Assembly: GCA_030602885.1 (NCBI GenBank)
Contig: JAUVYV010000035.1
Coordinates: 1 to 33,821 of the forward strand
DNA length: 33,821 nt
Source: Phycisphaerales bacterium
Lineage (GTDB): Bacteria; Planctomycetota; Phycisphaerae; Sedimentisphaerales; Anaerobacaceae
Direction: 5' to 3'
The notes beneath the pieces were generated by a model that was not told where the DNA came from, searched no databases, and worked only from the letters and a program-made list of their open reading frames with translations. Positions 2,362 to 23,479 of the stretch are shown piece by piece (position 1 is the stretch's first letter; the number at the start of each line of letters is the position of its first letter). The position numbers and the translations under genes were made by a program.

Positions 2362-3789
2362 ATGTTTGACGCATTAACACAGAAATTTAACAACGTTTTC
2401 AAATCCCTCTCGGGCAGAGGCCGTATCACCGAAGCAAACGTCTCGGACGCCGTCCGCGACGTCCGAAAGGCCCTGCTCGAAGCAGACGTCAGCTACAACG
2501 TCGCAAAGCAGTTCTGCAAGGACGTCACCCAGGCCGCCATGGGTGCCGACGTAATCAAGTCACTGCACCCCAGCCAGGTCTTCGTCAAAATCGTCAACGA
2601 CCAGCTCACAAAACTTATGGGCCCCGTCGATACAAATATCTATTACGTCTCACCGGGCCCGACAGTCGTCATGCTCGCAGGCCTCCAGGGCGGCGGCAAA
2701 ACCACCACCGCAGCAAAGCTCGCAAAATACACCGTTGCAAAAGGTAAAAAGCCCCTGCTCGTCGCTGACGACCTCCAGAGACCCGCTGCAATCGAGCAAT
2801 TAGTCACGCTTGGCGAGCAATTGGGCATCGAAGTTTACAGTGAAACAAGCAAAAACGCCGTAAAAGTTGCAAAAAACGCGCTAAAACACGCACAAAAAAA
2901 CGGCTTTGACGTCGTCGTCATCGACACCGCAGGCCGACTGCACATCGACGAAGAGATGATGACTGAGGTCGCCAACATTGCAAAGGCCGTAACGCCCCAC
3001 CAAATCTACCTCGTCTGCGACTCTATGACGGGCCAGGACGCCGTCAACTCCGCGAAGGAATTCAACGAACGGCTCGAATTGGACGGCGTCATCCTCACAA
3101 AGCTCGACGGCGACGCAAGAGGCGGTGCCGCCCTTTCCGTAAAGGCAGTCACGGGAAAACCCATCAAGTTCGTCGGCGTCGGCGAAAAGCTCGACAAGCT
3201 CGAAGAATTCCATCCCGACCGTATGGCATCCCGTATCCTCGGCATGGGCGACGTCGTCACGCTCGTCGAAAAGGCACAGGAGCAGTTCGACGCAGAAGAA
3301 GCGCAAAAGCTCCAGGCCAAGATGGCCAAGGGAAGCTTCGGCTTCGACGACTTTCTCAAGCAGATGCAGGCCGTCAAGAATATGGGCGGCATGAAGAGCA
3401 TGCTAAAACTCATGCCCGGCGCATCCCAACTCGGCGACCTCGACCTCGACGGCAACGAAATCGGGCAGATGGAGGCAATCGTCTATTCCATGACACGCAA
3501 AGAGCGGCAGAATCCCGACCTGATTGATTCACCTCGCAGAAGGAGAATCGCGGCGGGGTCGGGTACTCAGCCGCACAATGTCTCCTCACTCGTCAAGACC
3601 TTCATGCGAAGCAGGGATATGCTCAAGTCCCTGTCCGGCGGAAAGCTCGGCGGACTAAAAGCCCTCATGTCCGGCGGACTCAACATCGGCGCGCTTTCAC
3701 AGCAGATGGCGCAGGGCAGAAAAATCAAACAGCGCTCAAAAAGAAAACGAGTCATAAAAAGAAGAGGAAAAATCAAAAAACGCCGCTAA
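2362..3789 (+). CDS. ffh: Signal recognition particle protein Ffh
   Basis: The SRP GTPase binds SRP RNA and signal sequences of nascent membrane proteins and docks with FtsY. An N-terminal helical bundle is followed by the G domain: P-loop GLQGGGKTTT (G107-T116), DTAGRLHID (from D188) and TKLDGD (T246-D251). The M domain carries SMTRKERQNPDLID then RRRRIAAGSG, the RNA-binding and hydrophobic-groove region. Its 475 residues are normal for the family, and the C-terminus is extremely basic (Lys/Arg run over the last about 25 residues). No clear Shine-Dalgarno precedes the ATG. The partner RNA gene ffs lies at 23347. A sulfatase gene follows after 17 bases, which is an odd operon partner. Confidence 0.97.
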   Translation: MFDALTQKFNNVFKSLSGRGRITEANVSDAVRDVRKALLEADVSYNVAKQFCKDVTQAAMGADVIKSLHPSQVFVKIVNDQLTKLMGPVDTNIYYVSPGPTVVMLAGLQGGGKTTTAAKLAKYTVAKGKKPLLVADDLQRPAAIEQLVTLGEQLGIEVYSETSKNAVKVAKNALKHAQKNGFDVVVIDTAGRLHIDEEMMTEVANIAKAVTPHQIYLVCDSMTGQDAVNSAKEFNERLELDGVILTKLDGDARGGAALSVKAVTGKPIKFVGVGEKLDKLEEFHPDRMASRILGMGDVVTLVEKAQEQFDAEEAQKLQAKMAKGSFGFDDFLKQMQAVKNMGGMKSMLKLMPGASQLGDLDLDGNEIGQMEAIVYSMTRKERQNPDLIDSPRRRRIAAGSGTQPHNVSSLVKTFMRSRDMLKSLSGGKLGGLKALMSGGLNIGALSQQMAQGRKIKQRSKRKRVIKRRGKIKKRR

Positions 3790-3806: not shown

Positions 3807-5252
3807 ATGACACAGACCATTACCCGCCGTCGCTTTGTCAAATCCCTCGCGGCAACCGCCGCCGCAACCTTCCTGCCCGGCTGCAATGGCGGCCTTTTTT
3901 CAACCGAAGCCAGGCGGTTCTCCGACAGGCCGAACTTCATAGTCATCTTCATCGACGACATGGGCTACGGCGACCTCGGCTGCTTCGGCTCTAAGGTTCA
4001 TCGCACTCCGAATATCGACCAAATGGCCGCCGAAGGAATCAAGTTCACCAGCTTCTATGTCACCAGCGGCGTCTGCACCCCATCCCGCTCATCTCTGCTG
4101 ACCGGCTGCTACCCGAAACGCGTCGATATGCACCAGGACTCCAAAGGCCGGTGTGTCCTCTTTCCCGCTGCACACAAAGGACTCAACCCAAATGAAATCA
4201 CCATCGCCGAAATCCTGAAATCCCGCGGCTACGCCACCTGCTGCATCGGAAAATGGCACCTGGGCGACCAGCCGAAGTTCCTGCCCACCCGGCAGGGCTT
4301 CGATTACTACTACGGCATCCCCTACAGCAATGACATGGGGGGATCCAAGCAGACCAAACCCCCGCTGCCCCTGATGCGAAACGAAACCGTCATCGAAGCG
4401 CCCGCAAATCAGAACACCCTAACCCAACGCTACACCGCCGAAGCAACCAAATTCATAAAGAAAAACAAAGACCGCCCCTTCTTCATCTACCTGCCACACT
4501 CAATGGTCCACAACCCCCTCCACGCAAGCAAAGATTTCCGCGGCAAAAGTGCAAATGCCCGTTATGGCGACGCCGTCGAGGAAATCGACTTCTCAACTGG
4601 TCGGATCCTCAACACGCTAAGAAAACTCAAGCTCGATAAGAACACCCTCGTCGTATTCACCTCCGACAACGGCGCCTCAAACCAGTTCGGCGGCTCAAAC
4701 GCCCCACTGCGAGGCCACAAGGGCTCCACATGGGAAGGCGGCATGCGAGAGCCCTGCTTAATGTGGTGGCCCGGTCACATCCCCGCAGGAAAAACCTGCT
4801 CCGAAATGGCCATAACAATGGACCTGCTCCCAACCTTCGCTGCTCTCGCCGGTGCATCGCTGCCCGTTGACCGAACCATCGACGGAAAAAACATCTGGCC
4901 GCTTATGTCGGGAAAACCCAACGCAAAATCACCGCACGAGGCATTCTACTACTACCAGATCGACCAGTTACAGGCCGTCAGAAGCGGAAAATGGAAATTG
5001 CATCTCCCGCTCAAAGAGAAAAAGAAGAACTGGGGCGAGCCCGACCTCGATGTCCCTCTGCAGCTATACGACCTCGAAGCCGACATCGCCGAATCAAACA
5101 ACCTCGCCGACCGGCACCCGGAAGTAGTCGAACGCCTCCTCAAACTTGCAGAACGCGCAAAGCTCGACCTCGGTGACACAGAAATCCCAGGCCTCAACAC
5201 CCGCCCCGCCGGATGGCTTGTCTCACCAAAACCACTCTTGATGAAAAGATAA
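3807..5252 (+). CDS. Tat-exported sulfatase (S1 family, CTPSR type)
   Basis: Hydrolyses sulfate esters, probably on polysaccharides, outside the cytoplasm. The N-terminus has a twin-arginine signal (TRRRFVKSLAATAAATFLPG) ending in Cys26, which could be a lipobox. The formylglycine signature C90-T-P-S-R94 is intact; D50-D51 and the later TSDNG motif would bind Ca2+ together with the modified Cys, and GKWHLG supplies the conserved Lys/His. The length of 481 residues is typical. AAAGGA upstream of ATG 3807 supports the start. It begins 17 bases after ffh and overlaps the stop-start region of the following small gene, so it is likely co-transcribed with both. The exact substrate cannot be read. 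Cys90 must be oxidised by a sulfatase-maturating enzyme; none of the classical type is seen nearby except the secreted FGE-like protein at 16075. Confidence 0.93.
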   Translation: MTQTITRRRFVKSLAATAAATFLPGCNGGLFSTEARRFSDRPNFIVIFIDDMGYGDLGCFGSKVHRTPNIDQMAAEGIKFTSFYVTSGVCTPSRSSLLTGCYPKRVDMHQDSKGRCVLFPAAHKGLNPNEITIAEILKSRGYATCCIGKWHLGDQPKFLPTRQGFDYYYGIPYSNDMGGSKQTKPPLPLMRNETVIEAPANQNTLTQRYTAEATKFIKKNKDRPFFIYLPHSMVHNPLHASKDFRGKSANARYGDAVEEIDFSTGRILNTLRKLKLDKNTLVVFTSDNGASNQFGGSNAPLRGHKGSTWEGGMREPCLMWWPGHIPAGKTCSEMAITMDLLPTFAALAGASLPVDRTIDGKNIWPLMSGKPNAKSPHEAFYYYQIDQLQAVRSGKWKLHLPLKEKKKNWGEPDLDVPLQLYDLEADIAESNNLADRHPEVVERLLKLAERAKLDLGDTEIPGLNTRPAGWLVSPKPLLMKR

Positions 5253-5272
5253 TGGTCGGCTGTGAGGCCAAC

Positions 5273-5578
5273 ATGACAATAGACGAATATCTCGGAAAAG
5301 TCGCCCAATTCGCCGACAGCCGCTACGGCCGAATGGTCCGCAGCCGGTTCAAAGACCACCGCGGCTCAAGTGAGTTGGCCATGCTCGCCAGCCCCACTGC
5401 CGACGAGATCGAGCAGCTAAGACGCGCCGTCGCCATCATGACCCCCTCCGAAAAGCAAAACGCCGACAAACTCACCGACGAGCAAATCCACAAAATCGCA
5501 CAAGACGCCCGAACCGAACCCGCCCTGCTCGCAATCTTCATCAACGGCTACGCCCTGCATCAGAAACGTTCGCCGTAG
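5273..5578 (+). CDS. Small protein resembling part of the Ffh M domain
   Basis: A soluble 101-residue protein without signal or membrane segment. I choose ATG 5273 because GTGAGG lies five bases upstream; an in-frame ATG at 5252 overlapping the sulfatase stop (TAATG) is the alternative. Residues 44-93 align without gaps to residues 365-414 of the Ffh encoded 2 kb upstream: both have EI.Q, then MT..E(K/R)QN.D, then IA, then T.P, about 14 identities over 50 by eye plus many conservative changes. The Arg-rich RNA-binding segment of Ffh (RRRRIA) is replaced by QIHKIA, so SRP RNA binding is doubtful. It may be an M-domain-derived protein; coincidental similarity of two helical proteins is not excluded. 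It is not a family I recognise. Confidence 0.7.
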   Translation: MTIDEYLGKVAQFADSRYGRMVRSRFKDHRGSSELAMLASPTADEIEQLRRAVAIMTPSEKQNADKLTDEQIHKIAQDARTEPALLAIFINGYALHQKRSP

Positions 5579-5625
5579 TGTATGACAAAGCATAGGCGAG
5601 GGAACAAAACTTTTAGGGGATATTG

Positions 5626-7218
5626 ATGATTAGGACAACTATTGTCATCGGCCTGACGATGTGTCTGGCTTGTGGCTGTTCAGCAAGCAAATGCGCCGGC
5701 GATCACACTAACGCTGCGAAAATCAATATCATCCCGAAGCCGGTTGAGATGACTGTCGGCAAGGGCCTCTTTCGCATCGACACCGACACAAAGATTTATG
5801 CCCCCACTGCCAACACCGAAGCAGAGCAGATAGCAGAGTATCTCGCCGAAATGGTCAAACACCGTACCGGCTCTGGCCTGGAAATCAGTCGGTCCCGCAC
5901 CTCCCAAACAGAATCCAATGCAATCACATTTCACCTCGAACACCGCGACGACCTCGGCAGCGAGGGCTATATCCTTTCCGTCCGTCCCGATTCAATATTA
6001 ATAACCGCATCGCAGCCGGCCGGGATGTTCTACGCCGTCCAGACCATACGCCAGATGTTGCCCGAGCAAATCGAGGACACAACCAAAGAACACTATATCA
6101 ATCTATCCGTCCCCTGCATTTACATAAAGGACAGACCTGTCTTTGTGTGGCGGGGCCTGCTGCTGGACTGCAGCAGAGTGTTTCTTGAAAAGAAGTTTCT
6201 CCTCAGATACATCGACCTGCTCGCCCTGTACAAGATGAATATCCTGCAGCTCCATCTCACCGACGACCAGGGCTGGCGTCTCGAAATCAAAAAGTATCCC
6301 GAGCTCACCGAGCTGTGCTCGGAATTCTCCGACAGGTACCCTGATGCAAAAGGCGGCTACTATTCGCAGGACGATATAAAAGAAATGGTCGAATACGCCC
6401 GCCGCCGCTATGTCACCGTCGTCCCTGAAATCGAGATGCCCGGCCATTCCAGCTCCGTCTTCGTCGCATATCCGCATCTAAGCTGCAGGGGCGAAAAGAC
6501 CGAAATATTCCCCTTCTGGAAAGGCCCCACAATCACGAAAGACATCTTCTGCGCCGGCAACGAAGACGTTTACACCTTCCTTGAAAACGTACTCGGCGAA
6601 GTCGTCGAAATGTTTGACTCCGAATATATCCACATCGGAGGTGACGAGGCCCCCAAGGACAGGTGGAAGGAATGTCCCAAATGCCAGGCCATGCTCGCCC
6701 GTCACAACCTCACCGATGAAGAGCATCTTCAGGCCTATTTCACCCAGCGAATCGAACATTTCCTCAACTCCAAAGGGCGAAAGTTAATCGGATGGGACGA
6801 AATACTCGAAGGAGGACTGGCCAAAAACGCCGCCGTAATGTCCTGGAGAGGAACAGTCGGCGGCATCAAGGCAGCCCGGATGGACCACTACGTCGTAATG
6901 TCTCCCACCTCCGCCTGCTACTTCGACTACGACATAAGAACCACGCCGCTAAAGGAAACGTACCTCTACAATCCCGTCCCCGCTGAGCTGCCATCCGATA
7001 AGAGAAAATTTATCCTTGGCGGCCAAGGCAACATGTGGACACAGTCGGCCCCCACCGAAACCGCCATCGACAAACATACATTCCCGCGCCTTATCGGCCT
7101 GTCAGAAGCCCTCTGGACGCCATCTGAGCTGAAGGATTTCGACGACTTCCACAACCGCCTCGGTGCCCACTACCGCCGTCTCGACATAATGCACGTCAAA
7201 TACGGCCCCGAAAAATAA
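5626..7218 (+). CDS. Beta-N-acetylhexosaminidase, GH20
   Basis: Removes terminal beta-linked GlcNAc/GalNAc from glycans by substrate-assisted catalysis. The N-terminus is a short lipoprotein-type signal with several Cys (LACGC region), then a GH20b-like domain beginning near INIIPKPVEM, then the GH20 barrel with HLTDDQGWRLEIKKYPELTE and the catalytic pair in HIGGDEAPKDRW (D341-E342 counted from a TTG three bases before the chosen ATG). EIEMPGHS, the GWDEILEGG segment and the C-terminal EALWTP are also family landmarks. AGGGGA five bases before ATG 5626 decides the start. The length, 530 residues, is normal. Lying after a sulfatase, it fits stepwise removal of sulfate and then N-acetylhexosamine from a sulfated glycan. 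Confidence 0.95.
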   Translation: MIRTTIVIGLTMCLACGCSASKCAGDHTNAAKINIIPKPVEMTVGKGLFRIDTDTKIYAPTANTEAEQIAEYLAEMVKHRTGSGLEISRSRTSQTESNAITFHLEHRDDLGSEGYILSVRPDSILITASQPAGMFYAVQTIRQMLPEQIEDTTKEHYINLSVPCIYIKDRPVFVWRGLLLDCSRVFLEKKFLLRYIDLLALYKMNILQLHLTDDQGWRLEIKKYPELTELCSEFSDRYPDAKGGYYSQDDIKEMVEYARRRYVTVVPEIEMPGHSSSVFVAYPHLSCRGEKTEIFPFWKGPTITKDIFCAGNEDVYTFLENVLGEVVEMFDSEYIHIGGDEAPKDRWKECPKCQAMLARHNLTDEEHLQAYFTQRIEHFLNSKGRKLIGWDEILEGGLAKNAAVMSWRGTVGGIKAARMDHYVVMSPTSACYFDYDIRTTPLKETYLYNPVPAELPSDKRKFILGGQGNMWTQSAPTETAIDKHTFPRLIGLSEALWTPSELKDFDDFHNRLGAHYRRLDIMHVKYGPEK

Positions 7219-9657: not shown

Positions 9658-10782
9658 ATGGCAGTTAAAATCAGAATGTCACGTCTGGGAAGACGGCACC
9701 GCCCGTTCTTCAGAATCAACGTCATTGACTCTCGCACCCCCCGCGACGGCAGAATCCTCGAAAAATTAGGCCACTACGACCCCCTCGAAAAGAACACCGA
9801 AAGCCAGGTCGTCCTCAACATCGAACGCGTCAAATACTGGCTCGAAAAGGGCGCAATCCCCTCTGAAGCCGTCTCCGACATTCTGCTCCGAAAGGGAGTT
9901 AAACATAAACAGGCCGAACAACGCACCGCTCGACGGGCGCGCGCCAAGGCAAAGGCCAGAGCCAAAGGAAAGCCCTTTGACAAAGCCGATAGAGCAGCAA
10001 TCGTAAAAGCTGCTGACGCAGAAAAAGCTGCTGCCGAAGCTAAGGTAAAAGCTGCCGAAGAAAAAATCAAGGCCGAAGCAAAGGCCGCTGAAGAAGCTAA
10101 GAAAAAAACTGAAGAAGAGGCCAAAGCCGCCGAGGAGAAGGCCAAAGCCGACGCAGAAGCAAAGGGAAAACTGACTGAGCAGACCGCAGCACAAGCCGCC
10201 GAGCCCGCCGCTGCTGAAGAAAAACCGACCGAAGAACCAAAGCCCGAAGAGCAAAAAGCAGAAGAACCCCCAGCCGAGGAAAAACCCGCAGGAGAACCTG
10301 CAGAACACCCTAAGCCCCGGGAACCGAAAGCCGAACCCCAGGAACCTGCGAAGAAACCCAAATCCGAAGCCCTCGCAGAAAAGCCACCGGCCGAAGAACA
10401 CAAGCCCGAAACCCCGGCAGAACAGCCGAAGCCCGAAGAGCAAAAAGCTGAAGAACCCCCAGCCGAGGAAAAACCTCTAAAACAGCCCGGGACTGAGGAA
10501 CCGGTAACCGAAGAAAAGGCCGAGACCCAGGCCACAGAAGAAGAAAAAACCGAAGACGAGCCGCAGCCCGAAAAAGCCGAAGAACAAAAACCCAAACCCA
10601 AGGCCAAAAAAACAAAAGCAAAACCAAAAACAAAGAAAGATAAGCCTGAACCAACCGAGGAAAAACCAAAGGCCAAAAAGCCCGGAGCAAAGAAGAAAGC
10701 TAAGCCCGAGGAAAAACCCGAAGAACCAACGGCTGACAAAAACAAAGAAGAACCTCCCGAGAATGAACCCCAAAAAGAGTAA
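9658..10782 (+). CDS. rpsP: Ribosomal protein bS16 with very long acidic/basic tail
   Basis: Residues 1 to about 83 are a complete bS16 ([20 protein letters not shown], then [18 protein letters not shown] and W61[11 protein letters not shown]), a small-subunit assembly protein. bS16 is usually about 80-90 residues; here another 290 follow: a basic Arg/Ala/Lys stretch (about 86-106), a Lys/Glu/Ala helix-forming region to about 185, then Pro/Glu/Lys-rich sequence to the end. The 17-residue segment [17 protein letters not shown] occurs twice, an internal duplication. AAAAGGAG sits upstream of ATG 9658. The stop overlaps the trmD start by one base (TAATG), so the tail is translated in an operon and is not a sequencing read-through. 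The tail's role is unknown. Confidence 0.95.
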
Positions 10783-11480
10783 TGCGTATCGACGTCCTTA
10801 CTCTGTTTCCCGAGATGTTTGAATCGCCTCTGAGCGCCTCGATACTCAAGCGTGCTCAGGAGGCCGGCATTGTCGATATCCACCTCACTGACATCCGCAG
10901 CTTCTCAAAGGATAAGCACAACAAAGTCGACGACCGCCCCTACGGCGGCGGCCCCGGCATGGTAATGATGTGCCGGCCAATCTTCGACTCCTTCGAACAC
11001 GTCGAGAAACTCGCACTGGAAAAACCACACACCATCCTCCTCACCCCACAAGGCCAACCCTTCAACCAGAAAAAAGCTATCGAGCTTTCAAAAGAAAAAC
11101 GCCTCATCCTGATCTCGGGCCGATACGAGGGCTTCGACGAACGCATCCGCATCGGCCTCGGTGCCGAGCAAATCTCAATCGGCGACTACGTCCTCTCCGG
11201 AGGCGAGCTTGCCGCTATGGTCGTCATCGATGCCGCCGTTCGCCTGCTGGCAGGCGCCCTCGGCGACGAAGACTCCTCAAAAGACGATTCCTTCTCCGAG
11301 GGCCTGCTCGAATACCCCCACTACACCCGCCCCGAGGTTTTTCGCGATATGAAAGTCCCCGATGTCCTGCTCTCAGGCCACCACGCCGAAATTGAAAAAT
11401 ACCGCCGCGACCAGGCCCTCAAGCGTACAAAACAAAACCGCCCCGACCTGCTCAGGGACAACCCGCCTGAAGACCAATAA
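10782..11480 (+). CDS. trmD: tRNA (guanine-37-N1)-methyltransferase TrmD
   Basis: Methylates G37 of tRNAs with G36, preventing +1 frameshifting, using S-adenosylmethionine bound in a trefoil knot. Family landmarks are [13 protein letters not shown] at the start, [13 protein letters not shown], the knot region [11 protein letters not shown] and [14 protein letters not shown], and the C-terminal segment [16 protein letters not shown] containing the catalytic aspartate region. The 232-residue length is normal. Translation is coupled to rpsP by a one-base stop/start overlap. The rimM gene that usually lies between rpsP and trmD is absent from this position and from the window. Confidence 0.97.
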
Positions 11481-23346: not shown

Positions 23347-23446
23347 CCGGCCGGGTCCCATGCAGACCGAGCCCGTGAATCTGGTCAGGCGGGGAACCGA
23401 GCAGCCATAAGCGTGGCATTGGCCGTGCCGTGGCAAACCCGGCCGA
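23347..23446 (+). ncRNA. ffs: Signal recognition particle RNA, small bacterial type
   Basis: The universal SRP domain IV is present: GGTCAGG, then CGG-GGAA-CCG closing a GGAA tetraloop, then AGCAGCC (about 23383-23407). The ends pair as CGGCCGGGT (23348-23356) with ACCCGGCCG (23437-23445), giving a closed hairpin of about 100 nt like E. coli 4.5S RNA, without an Alu domain. A T5 run (from 23449) directly follows, suitable as a terminator. It lies just before dnaX, a common location. It would be bound by the Ffh encoded at 2362. Confidence 0.93.
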
Positions 23447-23479
23447 TCTTTTTACAGTGATAATCGATAATCAATTGCC

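Follow-up and report, generated by a model that had tools for sequence, protein, structure and literature searches.

A divergent, stand-alone SRP M-domain-like protein encoded behind ffh in the planctomycete order Sedimentisphaerales

The window analysed here (the whole stretch of DNA, 33,821 nt, from a member of the order Sedimentisphaerales) carries on its forward strand ffh (2362..3789, 475 aa; TIGR00959, 3.8e-173; PF02978, 97 bits), whose M domain is encoded by positions 3316-3636. It is followed by a sulfatase gene (3807..5252, +; PF00884, 1.2e-66) and then by a small gene, here called X (5252..5578, +), which we describe from its open reading frame, family, profile, fold and start as coding for a stand-alone SRP M-domain-like protein with ffh as its presumed parent gene. 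Downstream lie a GH20 beta-hexosaminidase gene (5623..7218, +; PF00728, 7.5e-103) and then rpsP (9658-10782) and trmD (10782-11480), both on the forward strand and conserved behind ffh and X in the order (tblastn synteny); judged by gene spacing, rpsP directly follows X in many relatives. A bacterial small SRP RNA of the 4.5S type is present in full length at 23349..23447 (+; RF00169, 66.2 bits vs. a gathering score of 40). As the genome thus has a normal SRP RNA and a normal Ffh, X is an addition to the SRP and no replacement of a part of it. The initial annotation placed X at 5273-5578 (+), where an open reading frame is indeed present and where the family-conserved block begins; its start may nevertheless lie upstream, as the window offers both ATG 5273 (101 aa) and ATG 5252 (108 aa), the latter overlapping the sulfatase stop (TAATG). 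The rpsP product in the window is a bS16 of ~85 residues fused to a Lys/Glu/Pro/Ala-rich tail of ~290 residues, and the length of this tail may vary, since the distance between rpsP and trmD is strongly variable among relatives.

We found that X residues 42-93 (5396..5551, +) align without a gap to Ffh residues 363-414, as supported by hhalign, by a column table of the two families and by the helices of AlphaFold2 models. The 14/50 identities that had been counted by eye between X 44-93 and Ffh 365-414 recur in the column table (E45, I46, Q48, V53, M56, T57, E60, Q62, N63, D65, I75, A76, T81 and P83), and six of these positions, E45, M56-T57, E60 and I75-A76, are invariant or nearly so in both families. 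BLASTP of X against the Ffh of the window as a single pair gave E=4e-5 (20/62 identities), a search of its own genome with X returned X itself and then Ffh as the only other match (E=0.03), and pairwise hhalign of X against the M domain gave E=2.1e-6. Profile-profile comparison scored X at 38.2 against M domains of the order (shuffles 11.4 ± 2.4, maximum 18.9) and at 31.3 against M domains from the rest of the phylum (shuffles 11.9 ± 2.3, maximum 19.6; null of 100 column shuffles), and in the reverse search the X profile matched the Ffh M domain in three other Phycisphaerae (G239, G299 and G309). The best Pfam family for X of the window is SRP_SPB (PF02978; residues 42-91, E=0.024, 15.4 bits); this is below the curated cut-off of 27 bits, and X is therefore a divergent relative rather than a formal member of SRP_SPB. 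The same family was matched, weakly, by 23/31 X members (best 6.8e-4; the next family by 3), and it is the only Pfam family that recurs across most of them. A search of NCBIfam with X gave no family, and the X profile matched no SRP54 chain among PDB chains by sequence (only unrelated matches, E at least 0.35), so that by sequence alone X falls short of the solved SRP54 structures; no unrelated family scored better than the M domain in these profile searches. The 101-108 aa reading frame gave no SRP54 or SRP54_N match that would indicate an NG GTPase.

We modelled X with AlphaFold2 without templates (pLDDT 80.8, pTM 0.72), and the M domain of the window's own Ffh likewise, at a similar alignment depth, as a yardstick (pLDDT 79.5). 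When the X model was aligned to the PDB with VIA-align, ranks 1-29 went without exception to SRP54/Ffh M domains or mL105-like mitoribosomal chains (Z from 10.1 down to 5.1, vs. 5.0 for the best homeodomain), and the best matches, which are M domains, spanned residues 1-101; the yardstick model reached a best Z of 14.4, with homeodomains at 4.7. Foldseek also placed SRP54/Ffh M domains and mitoribosomal chains on top, but at E of at least 0.2. The predicted helices of X (43-55, 58-62, 69-78 and 83-99) correspond one-to-one, with a three-residue offset, to the last four helices of the Ffh M domain (46-57, 61-65, 72-82 and 86-106 in M-domain numbering), and residues 11-40, the finger-loop region, were modelled with low confidence. 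Structure prediction thus gives X an M-domain fold over its whole length. A chance resemblance between X and Ffh was ruled out by the shuffles, the genome-wide search and the fold ranking, and it is near certain that X and the Ffh M domain share common descent. The view that X is a stand-alone M-domain derivative that arose as a duplicate from ffh is well supported by sequence, profile, fold and its position behind ffh.

The two families differ most clearly at the SRP-RNA contact, S-R-x-R-R-I-A-x-G-x-G, where Arg and Gly residues of Ffh touch SRP RNA in published SRP structures. The invariant R392-R395, G399 and G401 of Ffh are replaced throughout X; R392-R395 correspond to Q71, V/I72, a variable residue 73 and K/R74, in agreement with the earlier reading that the Arg-rich contact is replaced, and G399 corresponds to an invariant D78. 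Because these contact residues are lost, X is unlikely to bind 4.5S RNA in the canonical manner. X is also acidic (charge -3.3 vs. +4.2 for the Ffh M domain) and far poorer in methionine than the Ffh M domain (2.7 vs. 11.0 Met), which makes signal-peptide binding by X uncertain. The last helix of X contains eight consecutive invariant residues, AIFINGYA; its FINGYA forms a second invariant cluster that has no counterpart in Ffh, and such a run hints that the helix is buried or contacts a partner on more than one face.

Orthologues of X (E < 1e-13) were found in most of 99 near relatives and, at the same threshold, in 45 species-collection loci, each from a planctomycete MAG. In the class-wide sample X was found in 57/62 genomes of the order Sedimentisphaerales; four of the five others also have no detectable ffh in the assembly, and the available sequence of the fifth (G012) ends inside the sulfatase behind ffh, so that the misses in the order are assembly gaps or contig ends. 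Outside the order, the class-wide sample yielded no X homologue beyond chance-level matches, the phylum-wide sample agreed, and the region downstream of ffh in four other Phycisphaerae contained no X-like frame. Among the weak class matches, those in G239, G299 and G309 turned out to be Ffh itself, that in G148 was an ORF with the short stretch AIFINGYA alone in common with X, and one further match, in G155, lies outside Ffh. A chance-like frame in another order (L151:222-371, minus strand) has a secreted-like start and likewise shares only AIFINGYA with X. The 31 X members align almost gap-free with 25 invariant columns, the last of which form the AIFINGYA signature, and dN/dS was 0.10-0.17 in nine pairs, which together place X under strong purifying selection. 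X and Ffh are correlated in their pairwise distances (r=0.82; 0/2000 permutations), in line with joint vertical inheritance of the two sequences.

The gene order is the same in every locus with enough flank, namely ffh, a sulfatase in a subset, X and, further on, rpsP and trmD; X orthologues thus stay behind ffh wherever linkage could be scored. In ~27 distinct loci exactly 8 nt separate the ffh stop from the conserved X block, with X in the -1 frame relative to ffh. The initial annotation had assigned X to a sulfatase operon, which is wrong: many loci have no sulfatase between ffh and X, and in most relatives X directly follows ffh, before rpsP-trmD. A native sulfatase operon was also rejected on account of ffh-tail copies before X, since the DNA just 5' of X resembles, by eye, the end of ffh despite the sulfatase (L044, L045, L032 and L027), as a later insertion of the sulfatase predicts. 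We therefore regard the sulfatase as a later insertion in a subset of genomes and the sulfatase context of X as secondary; the apparently duplicated ffh tail beyond the sulfatase, seen in several genomes, may record the insertion event. Sulfatases of 66-72% identity occupy this place in the window and in L032, L034, L038, L040, L043-L046, L048, L050 and L055. Direct coupling of the two genes is dispensable, as shown by genomes in which a sulfatase or a gap separates X from ffh.

Where X follows a sulfatase or a spacer it usually has an ATG. Of the 33 loci with X abutting or overlapping ffh, 20 offer no ATG, GTG or TTG in the stretch from the last in-frame stop to the conserved block (L036, L052, L007, L025, L065, L061, L053, L067, L073 and, behind a sulfatase, L027 are among the loci without a canonical start). 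The candidate start in those 20 loci is ACG (17), ATA (2) or GCG (1), overlapping the ffh stop; it lies six codons (~18 nt) before the block, where other members have ATG, and in most of these loci GAGG, AAGG or AGGA stands 8-11 nt upstream. ACG occupies this position in 22/27 abutting loci vs. 14/44 others (p=7e-5, in a test that ignores shared ancestry). That the codon is simply forced by the Ffh tail was rejected, as its excess in abutting loci persists among loci with Arg as the penultimate Ffh residue (22/24 vs. 14/29, p=0.001, again ignoring shared ancestry). A programmed -1 frameshift that joins Ffh and X is an alternative; however, there is no common slippery codon across loci, L036, L052 and L065 have neither a start codon nor a slippery codon in the scanned stretch, and in L027 X lies behind a sulfatase instead of ffh and yet has no canonical start, with ACG kept. 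A start at an ATG inside the conserved block is disfavoured, as the N-terminal helix is conserved. We take near-cognate initiation of X coupled to ffh termination to be likelier than frameshifting. In an E. coli reporter study, ACG belonged to a group of weak codons and initiated at 0.1-1.5% of ATG (PMC6925171), so that X, if it starts at ACG, would be scarce unless coupling raises its translation. A bolder reading, which we hold to be rather doubtful, is that X is a second M-domain subunit whose ACG start over the ffh stop yields a fixed small fraction per Ffh, giving a two-M-domain SRP with a stoichiometry set by a non-AUG codon. The conserved ACG or ATA codon that apparently starts X in 19 loci would represent unusual near-cognate initiation for bacteria, and a non-canonical start, if real, would account for gene callers possibly overlooking X or misplacing its start.

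To our knowledge, the SRP is universal and the protein part of the bacterial SRP is taken to be Ffh alone; a report of a bacterial protein made of an M domain only was not found in the literature searched, which leaves most subscription journals outside its coverage. A small SRP-linked protein is encoded beside ffh in Firmicutes, namely YlxM, which in this resembles X; it differs in being encoded upstream of ffh and in being a helix-turn-helix protein rather than an M domain. With the M domain of Ffh/SRP54 itself X shares a helical fold, the order and spacing of the last four helices and the motif E..Q...V..MT..E and IA, but it has neither the NG domain nor the RNA-contact Arg and Gly residues, is acidic with few Met, scores below the Pfam cut-off and has a shorter linker from the finger-loop region to the helix that starts at residue 43. 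M-domain-only proteins are already known in mitochondria: mL105 is an NG-less M domain located at the mitoribosomal tunnel exit (PMC7326499; MAP67: PMC8321541), and in Polytomella it is associated with density assigned to the OXA1L insertase (PMC9576764). X resembles MAP67/mL105 as a divergent stand-alone Ffh M domain without NG, and its model matches mL105-kind mitoribosomal chains 6z1p_AT, 8apn_Ub and 9i05_AI. In contrast to X, MAP67/mL105 are nuclear-encoded, mitochondrial and found mostly in lineages that have lost the mitochondrial SRP (PMC8321541, PMC7326499, PMC9576764), whereas X is a bacterial protein whose gene neighbours ffh and which occurs alongside a full Ffh and SRP RNA. Given its restriction to one order and its position behind ffh, an origin independent of MAP67/mL105 is far more likely.

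We reasoned that X, which is kept by essentially every member of the order, probably assists or regulates protein targeting in a manner undescribed for bacteria, and it could, as had been proposed, modulate the SRP. The reading we favour, at a probability of roughly one half, is that X serves as an accessory M domain that needs no SRP RNA and cooperates with Ffh or sits at the tunnel exit. X would be the product of a tandem duplication of the ffh 3' end at the base of the order, and its translation would be coupled to ffh termination; the protein would then pair with Ffh, or take up the place close to the ribosomal tunnel exit where the Ffh M domain docks, and screen nascent chains there or tune the access of Ffh, in the manner of mL105/MAP67 on mitochondrial ribosomes. 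The fixed overlap of ffh and X suggests a stoichiometric partnership, and short gene overlaps are over-represented among the subunits of heteromeric complexes (PMC10666635). Having no NG domain, X should be unable to recruit FtsY alone. Binding to Ffh, to the ribosome or to both would each be compatible with the sequence data. If true, X would add an SRP-linked component new to bacteria, parallel to mitochondrial MAP67/mL105, and would make it possible to test the capabilities of an M domain that lacks its GTPase and RNA.

Other readings have to be weighed against this one. It is possible, though clearly less probable, that X is an Ffh-binding regulator (an anti-SRP or assembly factor) which sits on the M domain or tail of Ffh and limits substrate or RNA binding, itself touching neither ribosome nor nascent chains. 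The overlap with ffh and the conserved adjacency fit such a role, as do the acidic X (-3.3) facing a basic M domain (+4.2) and a basic Ffh tail, and an invariant AIFINGYA that exceeds what one-sided packing needs; against it, X persists where it lies at least 1.5 kb from ffh. We consider it unlikely that X is an M-domain duplicate repurposed for a non-targeting role, for example RNA or protein binding in the rpsP-trmD operon. Loss of the RNA contacts and methionines, inversion of charge and a FINGYA cluster without Ffh counterpart would all suit a change of function, but near-universal retention beside ffh in the order does not, and neither does the parallel divergence of X and Ffh, though shared ancestry predicts that too. 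Convergence of two small helical proteins is highly improbable: the modest single-sequence scores would be in keeping with it, but the ungapped motif is invariant in both families (E45, M56-T57, E60, I75-A76), the shuffles never approach the score of X against M domains, only M domains head the fold ranking, and X is encoded next to ffh.

We also observed stand-alone M-domain proteins in another family of Planctomycetota, f48 (L145:6007-6585, L146:5895-6611 and L144:5596-6321, minus strand), which in L145 and L146 match SRP_SPB (PF02978) above the cut-off, at 42-44 bits. Like X, they are a second M domain besides ffh, have no NG domain and do not carry the RRRR of the RNA contact (e.g. ATSRRAEVAYQ in L145). 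Unlike X, they are 190-240 aa long with a C-terminal extension, score 18 bits to the X profile, and are encoded not next to ffh but next to a gene whose product has a succinyl-CoA synthetase alpha-like start. As this set is separate from X, the stand-alone M-domain theme may recur in the phylum.
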